Origin: Paludibaculum fermentans
GTDB lineage: Bacteria; Acidobacteriota; Terriglobia; Bryobacterales; Bryobacteraceae
Length of the DNA stretch: 64,000 bases
Direction: 5' to 3'
Assembly (NCBI RefSeq): GCF_015277775.1
Contig: NZ_CP063849.1
Location: forward strand, 8,633,501 to 8,697,500
Shown piece after piece: positions 5,612 through 27,967 of the stretch. Within the stretch, counting starts at the first letter, position 1; the number at the start of each line of letters is the position of its first letter. The position numbers and the translations under genes were made by a program. The notes below the pieces were generated by a model. That model was given only the letters and a program-made list of their open reading frames with translations, ran no database searches and was not told the origin of the DNA.

Positions 5612-6139
5612 ATGCCTCAAAAGGAACAGATCCAGACGCCCACAAAAACGGGTTCGAAACGGTCGCCGACCGCGCTCGGGTTCAGCGAGCACGCCGTTTC
5701 TGAGATTTCCGAGACATTGCGCCATCTTCTGGCCGATGTGTTCAGCCTGTATATGAAGACCAAGAGCTTTCACTGGCACATGACCGGGCGCCATTTCCGC
5801 GACTATCATCTGCTGCTGGACGAGCAGGCGGCGCAGATCTACGCCATCACGGACGACATTGCCGAGCGGGCTCGGAAGCTGGGCGGGACTTCGCTGCGCT
5901 CGATTGGGGACGTCGCGCGCCATCAGCGGCTCCGGGACAATGATCGCGGGGATCTCACGGCTCGCGAGATGCTGACCGAACTTCGGGAGGACAACTCGCT
6001 GCTGGCGAATCTGCTGCGTGATGCCCACGAGGTCTGCGAGAAGCATGACGATGTGGCCACGACGAGCATGATCGAGGTCTGGATCGACCAGGCCGAGCGG
6101 CGGGCGTGGTTTCTGCGGGAGATCGTCGAGCAGAGCTGA
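5612..6139 (+). CDS. dps: Dps-family ferritin-like DNA-protection protein
   Basis: 175 residues starting at MPQKEQIQ; a longer upstream frame is not part of the protein because the Dps homology begins after this ATG. The four-helix ferritin-like core is clear, with the dinuclear ferroxidase-site pattern KTKSFHWHMTG (His residues) and LLLDEQAAQIYAITDDIAER (Asp/Glu residues). Dps proteins form 12-mers that oxidise and store iron with peroxide and coat DNA in starvation. The Lys/Arg-rich N-terminal tail (KTGSKRSP) fits DNA contact. Monocistronic, followed directly by a repeat array. Confidence 0.9.
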   Translation: MPQKEQIQTPTKTGSKRSPTALGFSEHAVSEISETLRHLLADVFSLYMKTKSFHWHMTGRHFRDYHLLLDEQAAQIYAITDDIAERARKLGGTSLRSIGDVARHQRLRDNDRGDLTAREMLTELREDNSLLANLLRDAHEVCEKHDDVATTSMIEVWIDQAERRAWFLREIVEQS

Positions 6140-6301: not shown

Positions 6302-6345
6302 GCCGACCAGGGGGTCGGCTGCGGACGAGGGCGTCCGCCGTCCTG
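6302..6345 (+). repeat. REP-like twin-hairpin element, copy 1
   Basis: A 44-bp element of two adjacent palindromes: GCCGACC-AGGG-GGTCGGC, one T, then GCGGACG-AGGG-CGTCCGC, then CGTCCTG. Both hairpins have 7-bp perfect stems and the same AGGG loop. The same element occurs at 6445, 6588, 26390, 26471 and 26552. Confidence 0.88.
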
Positions 6346-6444
6346 GCGTGGGACTTGGGCTCGGGTGGGCGGGTGGCTTCGTTTCGTTGATCTGCCGCGG
6401 CGGTTGGTGGCCGGGTTTCCGCTCCAATTGAAGAAGAGAAAAGA

Positions 6445-6488
6445 GCCGACCAGGGGGTCGGCTGCGGACGAGGGCGTCCGCCGTCCTG
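6445..6488 (+). repeat. REP-like twin-hairpin element, copy 2
   Basis: Identical in arms and AGGG loops to the copy at 6302, exactly 143 bp downstream, inside the tandem array. Confidence 0.88.
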
Positions 6489-6587
6489 GCGTGGGACTTG
6501 GGCTCGGGTGGGCGGGTGGCTTCGTTTCGGCGAACTGGCGCGGCGGTTGGTGGCCGGGTTTCCGCTTCAATTGAAGAAGAGAAAAGA

Positions 6588-6631
6588 GCCGACCAGGGGG
6601 TCGGCTGCGGACGAGGGCGTCCGCCGTCCTG
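6588..6631 (+). repeat. REP-like twin-hairpin element, copy 3
   Basis: Third identical copy, again 143 bp from the previous one. The sequence around it differs slightly from the other units (CGGCGAACTGGCGCGG in place of CGTTGATCTGCCGCGG), while the hairpins themselves are unchanged. Confidence 0.88.
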
Positions 6632-23575: not shown

Positions 23576-26500
23576 TCACCCCGCCTTCTCAATAATCCGG
23601 AAAATCGGCGCGCCATACTGCTCCACGAGCCTCAGGCTCATGCCCGGCACCTCCAGCAACTCCCTGGTCGTCTGGGGTCTCTTGGCAGCAATGGTTTGGA
23701 GCGTCCGGTCCGTCAGAATCCTGAACGCCGGGAGGCCTTTCTTTTTCGCTTCGCCTAAGCGCCAGGCTTTCAGGGCGTCTTCCAGTTTCAGGTTCCTGGC
23801 GGGCGGCGGGGTCGCGGCCCTCGGGGCGGAGGCGGCGTGCTCCAATTCGGCTGCTGGGCGCTTGGGGGGCTTGGTTTCCGATTTGGACGTTGACCTCGGT
23901 TTGCGCTCGCGCTTGGGTTTTGCCTCGACCGCCTTGGATGCTTGCCTCGGCGCTCTCTCGGCGCCCGCGGCCGTCTTCTTGCGGCTCCGCTTAGCTTTCG
24001 GGATTGCTTCGATTTCTACCGGTAGGCGGAGGGCCGCTACCGCGTCTTCGGCCCAGCCGGCGTCCGAGATGCGGACGCGGCGGAATTCGATTTCCTTGCC
24101 GTCCTTGGTGAACGACGTGTCCGTGATCACGATCAGGCCGCTGCGGGCCATGGCTCCGATTAGTTCTTCAAAGGCGCGGCGGTCCAGGACCGCGTCGGGG
24201 AAGACCTGGGTGTAGAGGCGGCCGGCCGAGACGGCTTCGATCTTCTTCAAGGCCTCTATGATTTGGGTGGCTCTCGCGGTTTCCTTGGGGGTGGCTTCGC
24301 GGAGCTGCTGGGCGATCGTCTCGTCGGGGGCGCAGATGTCGCAGTGGCCGCAGCGGCGGTTCAGGTCCTCGCTGTCTCCGAAGTAGCGCAACAGGGCCAG
24401 CATGCGGCAGGAGGAGACTTCGCAGTACGAAAGCATCTTCTGGAACTGCGCCATCTTGTGCTCGCGCTGCTCGATGTAGGATTCACGCCATTGCACGGAG
24501 CCGAGGCTGAGGTTTTCGGCGTAGTCGACGACCGCTCCGCCGTGGATCCAGAGTTTTTCCATGGCGATGTCGAATTCGTCTTCGGCCATGCGGACGCGGG
24601 CTCGGACGAGGTCCTTGGGCTGGGCGTCGGGGGTGAGCGCCTTGAAGATTTTGGCGACTATGTCCGGTTCGGGGTAGTCGCGCTCGTAGAAGAAGTCGTG
24701 GGTGTAGCGATCGGCGTAGGAGTGCATCAGGATCGCTCGGGCGGGGAGCCCATCGCGGCCGGCGCGGCCGATTTCCTGGTAGTAGCCTTCGACGCTGGAG
24801 GGCAGGGCGGTGTGGATGACGGTGCGGACGTCGGCTTTGTCGACGCCCATGCCGAAGGCGGTGGTGGCGACGATGACTTCGAGTTTGCCCTGGAGGAAGC
24901 CGGTCTGGACTTTTTCGCGGCGGTCGGCTTCCATGCCGGCGTGGTAGGCGGCGGAGGGGAAGGAGCCGGCGAGGAGGCTCGCCAAGTGTTCGGCGTCCTT
25001 GCGTTTGGGGGCGTAGATGATGGCGGGGCGGTGTTCGTCGTCCTGGAGGAGCTCGAGGGCGAGTTTGGCGCGGCTGCCGGGCGGGGCTTTGACGACTTCG
25101 ATGGCGATGTTTTCGCGGCGGAAGCCGTGGATGAGGGATTCGGCGGAGTGGAGGCCGAGCTGGACGGCGATGTCGCGCTGGACGAGGGGGGTGGCGGTGG
25201 CGGTGAGGGCGATGACGGGCGCGGGGCGGAGGCCGGGCAGGTGCTGGCCGATGTTGCGGTAGTCGGGGCGGAAGTCGTGGCCCCATTGGGAGATGCAGTG
25301 GGCTTCGTCGATGGCGACGAGGGTGGGTTTGCGCCTGGCGAGCATCTCGGGGAAGCCCTGGACGCGGAGGCGTTCGGGGGCGATGAAGAGGAAGTCGAGT
25401 TCGCCGGCGAGGTAGGCGTGGCAGGTTTCGCGGGAGGCGGCGCGGTCGCGATTGGAGTGGATCCGTTCGGCGGCGAAGCCCATGGCGTTGAGCTTGGCGA
25501 CCTGGTCCTCCATGAGGGCGATGAGGGGGCTGATGACGAGGGTGGTGCCGCCACGGGCGACTCCGGGGAGCTGGTAACAGAGGGATTTGCCGGAGCCGGT
25601 GGGCATGACGAGGAGGACGTCCTTGTCTTCCATGACGGCGCGGCAGACGGCTTCCTGGTTGGGGCGATAGCCGGGGAAGCGGAAGCGGGTGTGGAGGATG
25701 TCGTCGAGGGAGCCGGTGACGGCCTGGCGTTGGGCGCGGACGATGTCGCGGGTGGGGACGCGGGTGTGCTGGGTGCGCTCGGCGGCAATGGCTCCGCTGA
25801 AGGCTTTGCCGACGGCTTCGCGGACGTACTCCTCGATGCCGTGGAGGAAGGGCTGGAGTTCGGCCTGGCCGCGTTCGATGCGTTTGAGGTGGGCTTCCCA
25901 CTGGCCGGTCATGGCGGGGCTTTTTACTTCGGGGTGGACGACCTCGATGAGGCGGATGCCTTTGTCGGTGGCTTCCAGGCTCTTGCCACGGCGCTCGATG
26001 AAGCCGCGTTTCAGGAGGACTTCGATGATCTGGGCCCGGGTGGCGGGTGTGCCGAGGCCGCTCTCCTTCATGGCGTCGGAGAGCTCCTTGTCGTCGAGGG
26101 TTTTGCCGGCCGTTTCCATGGCGGTGAGCAAGGTGCCTTCGGTGAGGCGCTTGGGGGGGCGGGTGCGCTTTTCGATGGCGTCGGCGCCGAGAACCGTTTG
26201 TCTCTGGTTGGGGGTTAGGCCGGGGGGGAGTTCCTGGGCGTCGTCCGTGTTGCCGGGGTCGTCGGTGTCTTCGGTGGAGGCGCCTCGGGGTTTCTTTTCT
26301 TTTTTGCGGGTGACGATGTCGAGGACTTTCCAGCCGGTTTGCTGGATGGCGGTGCCGCTGGAGTGGAAGCGGTCGTCGATGGAGTTTGAGCCGACCAGGG
26401 GGTCGGCTGCGGACGAGGGCGTCCGCCGTCCTGACGGGGAGGATGGGGCTGGGTTGAGGTGGTTCGTGGTGCCGACCAGGGGGTCGGCTGCGGACGAGGG

Positions 26501-27967
26501 CGTCCGCCGTCCTGACGGGGAGGATGGGGCTGGGTTGAGGTGGTTCGTGGTGCCGACCAGGGGGTCGGCTGCGGACGAGGGCGTCCGCCCTCCTGACGGG
26601 GAGGTTGGTTCGGACGACGGGCGGGATGACGCGGATAACTGGCTGGACGTTTCGGATGACGGGGTGGAGGAACCGGATGACGGGGTGCTTCGGACCAGGG
26701 TGATTACCGTGGTTACCGACCAGATGTGGTCGTCGTGCCAGGCGGAGAGGAGACGGCGGCAGATGAGGTCGAAGATGCGCTCCTCCTCGCCGTTTAGGGA
26801 TGCTCGCTCAGCGGAGACTCCGGTCGGGATGATGGCGTGGTGGTCGGTGACCTTGGTGTCGTCCACGTAACGTTTGTTTAGAGGGCGTTCGCCGGTGCCG
26901 GGGGCGAGGTGGGCCTGGTAGGGGGCGGAGATGCCGGCTACGATTTTGGGCAGGGTTTTGGCGACGTCGGCCGAGAGGTGGCGGCTGTCCGTGCGGGGGT
27001 AGCTGATTAGCTTGTGGCGTTCGTAGAGGGCCTGGGCCGTGTCCAGGGTACGCTGGGCGCTCATGCCGTAGAGGCGGTTGGCGTGGCGCTGGAGCTCGGT
27101 GAGGTCGTAGAGGCCGGGCGGCGGCATGCGCTTGGTCTGGGCCTCGATCTTCTCGATGTGGGCGGCTCCGGTTTTGACGCGGTCGACGATGGCGTTGGCT
27201 TCGATGCCGTCGGCGGGCAGGCGGGAGGAAGCGTCGAGGGTTTCGCCGCCCGGGCGGAACCAGGTGCCCGAGTAGGAGCGGTCGTCGCCGGGGGAGAATT
27301 CGGCGGTGACGGTGTAGTAGTCCTCGGGTACGAAGTGGCGGATGGCGAGTTCGCGTTCGACGACCATGGCGAGGGTGGGGGTCTGGACGCGGCCGACGGA
27401 GAAGTCCTCGCCGTGGCCGAGGGTGTAGGCGCGGGAGAGGTTCATGCCGACGAGCCAGTCGGCGCGGCTGCGGCCCCGGGCGGCGTCGGCGAGGGCGTCG
27501 TAGGCGGTGCCGGCTTTCACCTTTTCGAAGCCGTCGCGGATGGCGTCGGGGGTGAGGGAGGAGATCCAGAGGCGGCGGACGGGCTTGTCGGAGCCGGCGG
27601 CTTCGTAGATGTAGCGGAAGATGAGCTCGCCTTCGCGGCCGGCGTCGGTGGCGCAGATGACGTCGGAGATCTTGGGGGAGGTGAGGATTTTGCGGACGAC
27701 CTCGAACTGGTCCTTGGTCTCCTCGCCTATGACGAGGGGCCATTGTTCGGGGAGCATGGGGAGGGTTTCGCGTTTCCACCATTTCCAGTCGGCGCGGATT
27801 TCGTGGGGCTGGGCGAGGGCGACGAGGTGGCCGATGGCCCAGGTGACGACGAAGCCGTTGCCGTGCAGGTAGCCCTGGCCGGTACTGGTTGCTTTGAGAA
27901 CTCTCGCAATGTCGCGTGCCACGGAAGGCTTTTCGGCGATCACTGCGACGCTGAATTGCGACGCCAT
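23576..27967 (-). CDS. Topoisomerase III-RecQ helicase fusion protein
   Basis: 1463 residues from the ATG opening MASQFSVAVIAEKPS; upstream frame is repeat DNA, not protein. Residues 1-~690 are type IA topoisomerase III: Toprim Glu in IAEKPSVARD, ATDAGREGEL, active-site Tyr323 in ISYPRTDSR. Residues ~750-1240 are RecQ: Walker A MPTGSGKS at ~788-795, DEAH box 887-890, zinc-binding RQC with RRCGHCDIC. An HRDC domain closes the protein (~1396-1463) after a Lys/Ala/Pro-rich linker. RecQ and Top3 normally act together to unlink recombining DNA; here they are one polypeptide. An insert at ~425-532 splits a beta hairpin of the topoisomerase and contains three in-frame REP-like elements. Confidence 0.9.
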   Translation of the reverse strand: MASQFSVAVIAEKPSVARDIARVLKATSTGQGYLHGNGFVVTWAIGHLVALAQPHEIRADWKWWKRETLPMLPEQWPLVIGEETKDQFEVVRKILTSPKISDVICATDAGREGELIFRYIYEAAGSDKPVRRLWISSLTPDAIRDGFEKVKAGTAYDALADAARGRSRADWLVGMNLSRAYTLGHGEDFSVGRVQTPTLAMVVERELAIRHFVPEDYYTVTAEFSPGDDRSYSGTWFRPGGETLDASSRLPADGIEANAIVDRVKTGAAHIEKIEAQTKRMPPPGLYDLTELQRHANRLYGMSAQRTLDTAQALYERHKLISYPRTDSRHLSADVAKTLPKIVAGISAPYQAHLAPGTGERPLNKRYVDDTKVTDHHAIIPTGVSAERASLNGEEERIFDLICRRLLSAWHDDHIWSVTTVITLVRSTPSSGSSTPSSETSSQLSASSRPSSEPTSPSGGRTPSSAADPLVGTTNHLNPAPSSPSGRRTPSSAADPLVGTTNHLNPAPSSPSGRRTPSSAADPLVGSNSIDDRFHSSGTAIQQTGWKVLDIVTRKKEKKPRGASTEDTDDPGNTDDAQELPPGLTPNQRQTVLGADAIEKRTRPPKRLTEGTLLTAMETAGKTLDDKELSDAMKESGLGTPATRAQIIEVLLKRGFIERRGKSLEATDKGIRLIEVVHPEVKSPAMTGQWEAHLKRIERGQAELQPFLHGIEEYVREAVGKAFSGAIAAERTQHTRVPTRDIVRAQRQAVTGSLDDILHTRFRFPGYRPNQEAVCRAVMEDKDVLLVMPTGSGKSLCYQLPGVARGGTTLVISPLIALMEDQVAKLNAMGFAAERIHSNRDRAASRETCHAYLAGELDFLFIAPERLRVQGFPEMLARRKPTLVAIDEAHCISQWGHDFRPDYRNIGQHLPGLRPAPVIALTATATPLVQRDIAVQLGLHSAESLIHGFRRENIAIEVVKAPPGSRAKLALELLQDDEHRPAIIYAPKRKDAEHLASLLAGSFPSAAYHAGMEADRREKVQTGFLQGKLEVIVATTAFGMGVDKADVRTVIHTALPSSVEGYYQEIGRAGRDGLPARAILMHSYADRYTHDFFYERDYPEPDIVAKIFKALTPDAQPKDLVRARVRMAEDEFDIAMEKLWIHGGAVVDYAENLSLGSVQWRESYIEQREHKMAQFQKMLSYCEVSSCRMLALLRYFGDSEDLNRRCGHCDICAPDETIAQQLREATPKETARATQIIEALKKIEAVSAGRLYTQVFPDAVLDRRAFEELIGAMARSGLIVITDTSFTKDGKEIEFRRVRISDAGWAEDAVAALRLPVEIEAIPKAKRSRKKTAAGAERAPRQASKAVEAKPKRERKPRSTSKSETKPPKRPAAELEHAASAPRAATPPPARNLKLEDALKAWRLGEAKKKGLPAFRILTDRTLQTIAAKRPQTTRELLEVPGMSLRLVEQYGAPIFRIIEKAG
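26390..26433 (+). repeat. REP-like twin-hairpin element inside the topoisomerase coding region, copy 4
   Basis: Same arms and AGGG loops as 6302-6345. Read on the coding (minus) strand it encodes RTPSSAADPLVG. Lies in an 81-bp (27-codon) tandem repeat. Confidence 0.9.
26471..26514 (+). repeat. REP-like element in coding region, copy 5
   Basis: Exactly 81 bp from copy 4 and identical in the core; the 37 bp between cores are also repeated (encoding TTNHLNPAPSSPSG). Confidence 0.9.
26552..26595 (+). repeat. REP-like element in coding region, copy 6
   Basis: 81 bp from copy 5; one change (CCGCCCTCCTG instead of CCGCCGTCCTG). Frame is kept throughout. Confidence 0.9.

Follow-up and report, generated by a model that had tools for sequence, protein, structure and literature searches.

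A REP palindrome array lying in frame within the topoisomerase III-RecQ gene of Paludibaculum fermentans, probably amplified from a single insertion

The topoisomerase III-RecQ fusion gene of Paludibaculum fermentans carries, in frame, three identical copies of a short twin-hairpin palindrome that belongs to a REP family dispersed through the genome. The arrangement is most probably the product of one REP insertion into a tolerant loop of the enzyme, followed by tandem amplification under a filter that passed only multiples of three nucleotides, and the resulting loop is most likely neutral. The gene lies in a 64,000-nucleotide stretch of DNA, hereafter the window, which is contained in a source genome of 9.53 Mb in 2 contigs (G000). 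A sister species (G006) and a slightly more distant congener (G002) supply the principal comparisons, and features are located in Table 1.

Table 1. Features of the array, its host gene and the associated transposase gene; positions are those of the window unless a genome contig is named.
Feature	Position	Strand	Remarks
Topoisomerase III-RecQ fusion gene	23576..27967	-	1463 aa counted from the ATG of MASQFSVAVIAEKPSVARD; Pfam domains
Ser/Pro-rich insert, 105 residues	26375..26689	-	Between LVR and DRFH; 4 residues in G002, 170 in G006; disordered in AlphaFold prediction
REP twin hairpin copy 1	26390..26426	+	37 nt, then CGTCC
REP twin hairpin copy 2	26471..26507	+	37 nt, then CGTCC
REP twin hairpin copy 3	26552..26588	+	37 nt, then CCTCC
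44-nt spacer of the 81-bp unit	26427..26470	+	Identical repeat at 26508-26551
Non-REP Ser/Pro-coding portion of insert	26600..26689	-	Begins with AGCACCCC...TCCGGT, similar to the corresponding edge in G006
Three-copy array of the same element outside genes	6302..6624	+	Period 143 bp; the ORF upstream of it ends at 6139
RAYT-like (Y1_Tnp) gene	G000:C1:4458528-4459205 (L034:3029-3709)		PF01797 match

On the plus strand each in-gene twin hairpin reads GCCGACC-AGGG-GGTCGGC-T-GCGGACG-AGGG-CGTCCGC, the copies are spaced by exactly 81 and 81 bp, and each encodes RTPSSAADPLVG, at residues 461, 488 and 515 of the protein, within the 105 residues that separate ITLVR from DRFHSSG. A sequence-only reading of the window had described three copies at exact 81-bp spacing with the frame kept, a Ser/Pro-rich insert of about 105 residues, and a related intergenic array at 6.3-6.6 kb with a 143-bp period, which is not divisible by three; all of these were recovered here. 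The same reading had given the twin hairpin as 44 bp, and while the twin hairpin is indeed shared, that length is slightly generous, since what the copies have in common is a 37-nt core with CGTC or CCTC as its tail. Its proposal that the insert splits a beta hairpin is borne out at the level of prediction: an AlphaFold model (18-sequence alignment; mean pLDDT 71, pTM 0.69) has strands at residues 414-427 and 530-543 with residues 431-527 disordered at pLDDT under 50, which puts the insert at the tip of a predicted beta hairpin whose loop length differs among relatives. Exact insertion boundaries and any target duplication are unreadable, and the insert also includes non-REP Ser/Pro-coding DNA.

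The host gene looks functional. The protein contains Toprim, Topoisom_bac, DEAD, Helicase_C, RecQ_Zn_bind and HRDC domains, the gene holds no internal stop codon, and the reading frame stays open upstream of the chosen ATG, as far as 28402. Across the flank upstream of the insert, G000 and G006 differ by dS 0.13 and dN 0.014 (dN/dS 0.10), and the gene looks to be alive and under purifying selection, unlike the pseudogene that the sequence-only reading had allowed for; the insert apparently adds a floppy loop to a working enzyme. Codon usage in the insert is non-native, with a mean log-odds of -0.27 where 20 of 30 fifty-codon blocks of the gene score 0.30-0.49, and the gene's final four blocks likewise score low (0.07 to 0.23). 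Among 26 loci of named genomes that hold relatives of the protein, 22 are labelled Acidobacteria, Acidobacteriales, Bryobacterales, Solibacter, Solibacteraceae or Sulfopaludibacter, and the remaining 4 Competibacteraceae, Contendobacter or Proteobacteria.

Comparison of related genomes dates the insert. At this site G006 carries six copies, again with an 81-bp period, in a longer loop, and in G002 the site is empty (ITLVRSTVDDRFH, encoding STVD). A motif-based reading of the site succeeded in 43 of the 45 loci with the gene, namely G000, G006, G002 twice and 39 others, some of which are genes fetched twice. The distance from TTVIT to the following D is 108 residues in G000, 173 in G006, 7 in G002 and 8-15 in 39/39 of the others; the same insert in distant relatives, which the sequence-only reading had named as a refutation, was thus not found. 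Of the two loci that the motif did not read, L087 begins past the insertion point, and L108, judged by eye, has a short loop. Upstream of the insert, identity is 96.1% for G000-G006, 93.6% for G000-G002 and 92.6% for G006-G002, with dS of 0.13, 0.28 and 0.29, respectively; over the same 1041 positions downstream, the corresponding identities are 97.2%, 94.7% and 95.1%. These values make G000 and G006 sister species, so that a single ancestral gain is enough, and from these distances we infer that the insert is young, gained in the common ancestor of G000 and G006 after the split from G002.

Two further observations concern the neighborhood of the gene in these relatives. The G002 topoisomerase contig (L099 / L059, G002:C15 near 1378) turns to unrelated sequence, DapA-like by eye as we take it, 114 bp past the empty site, and the remainder of the gene begins at the edge of another contig (L087). 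The contig looks like a chimeric MAG contig, and its empty site therefore deserves checking, though the outgroups agree with it. Upstream of the G006 topoisomerase gene, at L058:3115-3661, lies a different tandem repeat of 5 copies spaced 111-121 bp apart, some of them with GGCCTCCGGCGATGCCGGAGG hairpins.

The element is a REP by structure and distribution. A covariance model built on 25 copies, picked among 35 twin-hairpin hits, matches G000 at least 91 times at E <= 0.01, in 56 loci, and as the search scored 150 of 14741 first-look candidates, the true number may be higher. Chance is very far from accounting for this repeat. In the modelled copies 93.4% of stem cells are paired, a figure biased toward pairing by the choice of copies on their hairpin pattern, and two-sided changes occur in 7 of 14 stem pairs, where none of 500 shuffles gave as many. 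The stems are 7 bp long, with G-C at the first position and C-G at the second in most copies, and the second hairpin is followed by CGTC or CCTC in 82 of 91 elements (CCTC 45, CGTC 37). These are dispersed short palindromes with compensatory stem changes, and 55 of the 56 loci are without convincing coding sequence on both sides. Among 12 relatives searched, with 150 first-look candidates scored per genome and counts that may consequently be low, G002 has at least 89 matches, G006 at least 78 and G005 at least 3 weak ones, and the other 9 have none among the matches listed.

Several features of the family lie apart from the topoisomerase locus. The 9,476,802-base contig starts and finishes within or close to element copies (G000:C1:20-193 and 9476668-9476718), and these ends are probably where the circle was cut or where assembly halted in a REP array. 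Regular extragenic arrays are found in G006 at L137, L138 and L139, with 5 copies at 258-259 bp, 5 at 215 bp and 4 at 243-340 bp. A subfamily at L028, L032, L041 and L049 has a first hairpin of the form G(T/C)CGACC..GGTCGCC and, by eye, common flanks (GTGGGTGGCGATG..., ...CCGGTCCAG), which suggest that movement or duplication at these loci may have involved a longer unit.

A candidate mover for the family is encoded in the same genome. Elements at 4458550 (-), 4459231 (+) and 4459309 (+) surround the RAYT-like gene, one lying across its 5' end in the listed coordinates and the other two just downstream in the opposite orientation, so that a Y1/HUH transposase gene is flanked by inverted copies as in REP/RAYT systems. 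Its closest relative in G006 (L154) is 60% identical and has weaker element matches on both sides, while the other seven Y1_Tnp loci fetched from G000 (a ninth match was left out) have no elements within about 1.5 kb of flank. The G000 protein reads MPNDVHL where relatives have MPNH(V/I)H, MPNHIHL in the case of the G006 relative, with Asp replacing the first His of the HUH motif, and may on that account be inactive. YIEGNPVRAGL in G000 and YIEQNPVRAGL in the G006 relative contain what we take to be the catalytic Tyr. The REP family may, to judge from this motif, have lost its mover in G000. In G002, a draft of 80 contigs, the best match to the G000 protein is only about 33% identical, despite the at least 89 elements there.

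A sequence of events that accounts for these observations would begin with a REP from a family present in three closely related species, presumably mobilized, now or formerly, by a single-strand transposase of the RAYT type or by a related enzyme. Such an element would have inserted once into the topoisomerase III-RecQ gene of the G000/G006 ancestor, at a beta-hairpin tip where loop length varies among relatives. Elements are stop-free in all six frames in 53 of 91 cases and in each of five frames in 89-91 of 91, and because the element is nearly stop-free in five of six frames the insertion could be read through; it could be tolerated because nearly all frames are open and the target is a loop. 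Tandem duplication of the element together with adjacent DNA, in units of 81 bp (27 codons) and via slippage or unequal recombination, would then have led to 3 copies in G000 and 6 in G006, and purifying selection on the enzyme would have let through only total lengths that are multiples of three. Equal 81-bp spacing and identical spacers point to tandem duplication rather than repeated insertion, and one insertion with duplication of the unit would explain the copies better than three insertions. The period of 81 bp is not in itself special, as spacings in other arrays are often divisible by three too (12 of 29 in other G000 arrays, 11 of 23 in nine sampled G002/G006 arrays), and divisibility by three alone therefore proves nothing. 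The encoded Ser/Pro-rich loop, predicted to be disordered, is most likely neutral.

One alternative to neutrality is that the repeat-encoded loop was recruited, altering topoisomerase III-RecQ activity or partner binding and being selected in two species. Both sister species, separated by dS 0.13, have the insert, and it has multiplied in each; in-gene REPs are described in the main text of Di Nocera et al. (2013, PMC3733652) as frequent in replication and repair genes, with speculation about altered activity. Against this, the one 27-codon (81-nt) unit compared per species has dN 0.25 and dS 0.18 in the coding frame, so that the peptide is not visibly constrained, and the loop differs in length between the species, 105 versus 170 residues, and is predicted to be disordered. 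Recruitment is on this evidence unlikely.

Similarly improbable is that G000 and G006 acquired their arrays independently, at a hotspot loop, instead of inheriting one shared insertion. Beyond the tail, the two spacers agree at 24 of 38 positions, which is far above the mean of 13.6 for control spacers but barely over their maximum of 23 (n=126, related copies included). What argues for a single event is that site, 81-bp period and the non-REP edge of the insert are the same or similar in both species. A source array for the topoisomerase unit was also sought elsewhere, and the best of the 126 other element flanks matched at 23 of 38 positions.

The shared insertion favored here leaves a contrast within the unit. 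Between G000 and G006 the hairpin consensus is changed at 0 of 37 positions and the spacer at 16 of 44, with one private change in each of 3 of the 6 G006 hairpin copies; if all sites were equal, the chance of all 16 changes falling in the spacer is 1.2e-5. Neutral sites of the flank (dS 0.13) have also diverged far less than the spacer. Had a single shared array merely drifted neutrally, such a contrast would not be expected. The surplus over neutral dS points to one of two things: the spacers lack simple homology, or the hairpins are being kept or copied. It is conceivable, at rather long odds, that the in-gene array is not passive, its hairpin DNA being kept by REP-directed conversion or by selection on DNA or RNA structure, in a feedback with a hairpin-processing enzyme. 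If true, the gene would carry a copy-number-variable, fast-evolving disordered loop in the type of enzyme that would unwind such hairpins.

Whether the family habitually enters genes was addressed by scoring ORFs around all 91 G000 elements with a codon-usage measure trained on 152 long ORFs, an element counting as in-gene when at least 20 same-frame codons on both sides scored about 0.1 or more. Only the topoisomerase locus qualifies (1 of 56 loci), with scores of 0.37 and a borderline 0.10, one side including the Ser/Pro-coding insert, as against 57.6% of 3000 random window positions; the family thus avoids genes, and the topoisomerase is the exception. In a sample of 27 element-bearing regions drawn mostly from stronger matches, 15 from G006 and 12 from G002, the G006 topoisomerase was the one convincing in-gene case. 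At eleven further loci long ORFs overlap or touch elements, and these were set aside as N-terminal extensions, spurious frames or contact with an ORF end. Pfam was run on ten ORFs (omitting the L038 ORF, the L037 plus-strand ORF and two further L029 ORFs). At L030, L033, L037, L119 and L120, which have Pfam domains, the elements lie in N-terminal extensions before the domain; at L123 (no Pfam match) the element directly precedes a later Met; at L038 only the C-terminal end of the ORF is clipped; and L019, L023, L027 and L029 lack a Pfam match and, on one side or both, score weakly or have too few codons.

This distribution bears on the likeness to Rickettsia palindromic elements (RPEs) that the sequence-only reading had drawn. 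RPEs, in descriptions attributed to Ogata from 2000 and 2002, are reportedly palindromic DNA lying in frame within genes and adding a peptide. The P. fermentans array is likewise palindromic DNA in frame within a gene whose flank has a dN/dS of 0.10, with a peptide added according to the predicted translation, and that part of the likeness, a recent in-frame gain of REP-like DNA by a selected gene, stands. The likeness does not extend to the habit of the family: RPEs are about 150 bp long and nearly half of them lie in genes, as a 2024 review summarizes (PMC10969869), unlike the single locus in 56, the 37-nt core and the tandem array found here. RPE sequences of R. conorii are said, in the text of Di Nocera et al. 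(PMC3733652), to end in CGTC. That the P. fermentans element is itself a protein-invading palindrome of this type, transposing routinely into genes with every copy a separate in-frame insertion, would fit the same peptide being read from each copy and the absence of the insert from relatives, but is hard to credit, given the coding scan of G000 and of the sampled G006 and G002 regions and the equal spacing and identical spacers, which point to tandem duplication. An assembly artefact or decayed gene is scarcely plausible, for although tandem repeats are prone to misassembly and the G002 contig changes shortly past its empty site, in-frame arrays occur in two genomes of few contigs (2 and 3), the G000 gene retains its domains without a stop at low flank dN/dS, and the further loci are uniformly empty at the site.

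REPs inside genes have precedents. The main text of Di Nocera et al. (2013, PMC3733652) describes GTAG/CGTC-tagged REPs in several species as mostly intergenic with a minority inside ORFs, reports in-gene clusters encoding 43-82 aa, notes that REP-tagged genes often serve replication or repair, with no others tagged in many of the species, and suggests that in-gene REPs occupy flexible linkers or loops and are possibly neutral. Compared with the in-gene REPs in that text, the hairpins here are twinned and in tandem and the inserts longer (105 and 170 aa). The CGTC/CCTC variation of the tail is described there for CGTC-tagged REPs, and the tail of the present elements is unpaired, at one end, and found in 82 of 91. 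CGTC-tagged REPs have stems of 8-9 bp with AT in the first two positions, whereas the present stems are 7 bp without AT pairs at the first positions, and the main text reports no transposase link, whereas copies here adjoin a RAYT-like gene (PMC3733652). With REP/RAYT systems (REPtrons; REPINs, as presented in PMC3116915) the family shares dispersed palindromes, covarying stems and a Y1 transposase gene flanked by copies, and differs in its in-gene presence and in the Asp for the first His of HUH in G000. Topoisomerase III is absent from the main text of Di Nocera et al. (PMC3733652), and among the top 10 of 58 matching papers no title or abstract opening describes such an insert; an earlier description may nevertheless exist.

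In-gene REPs are known, and this case adds a well-dated example with unusually clean before and after genomes. The three species form a clean series of empty site, 3 copies and 6 copies, in which a selfish intergenic palindrome turns into part of a protein, here in an acidobacterium only distantly related to Rickettsia, and topoisomerase III-RecQ is added to the replication and repair genes noted to hold in-gene REPs. Because close relatives have filled and empty forms of the enzyme, whether the loop reflects chance or recruitment is a testable question.
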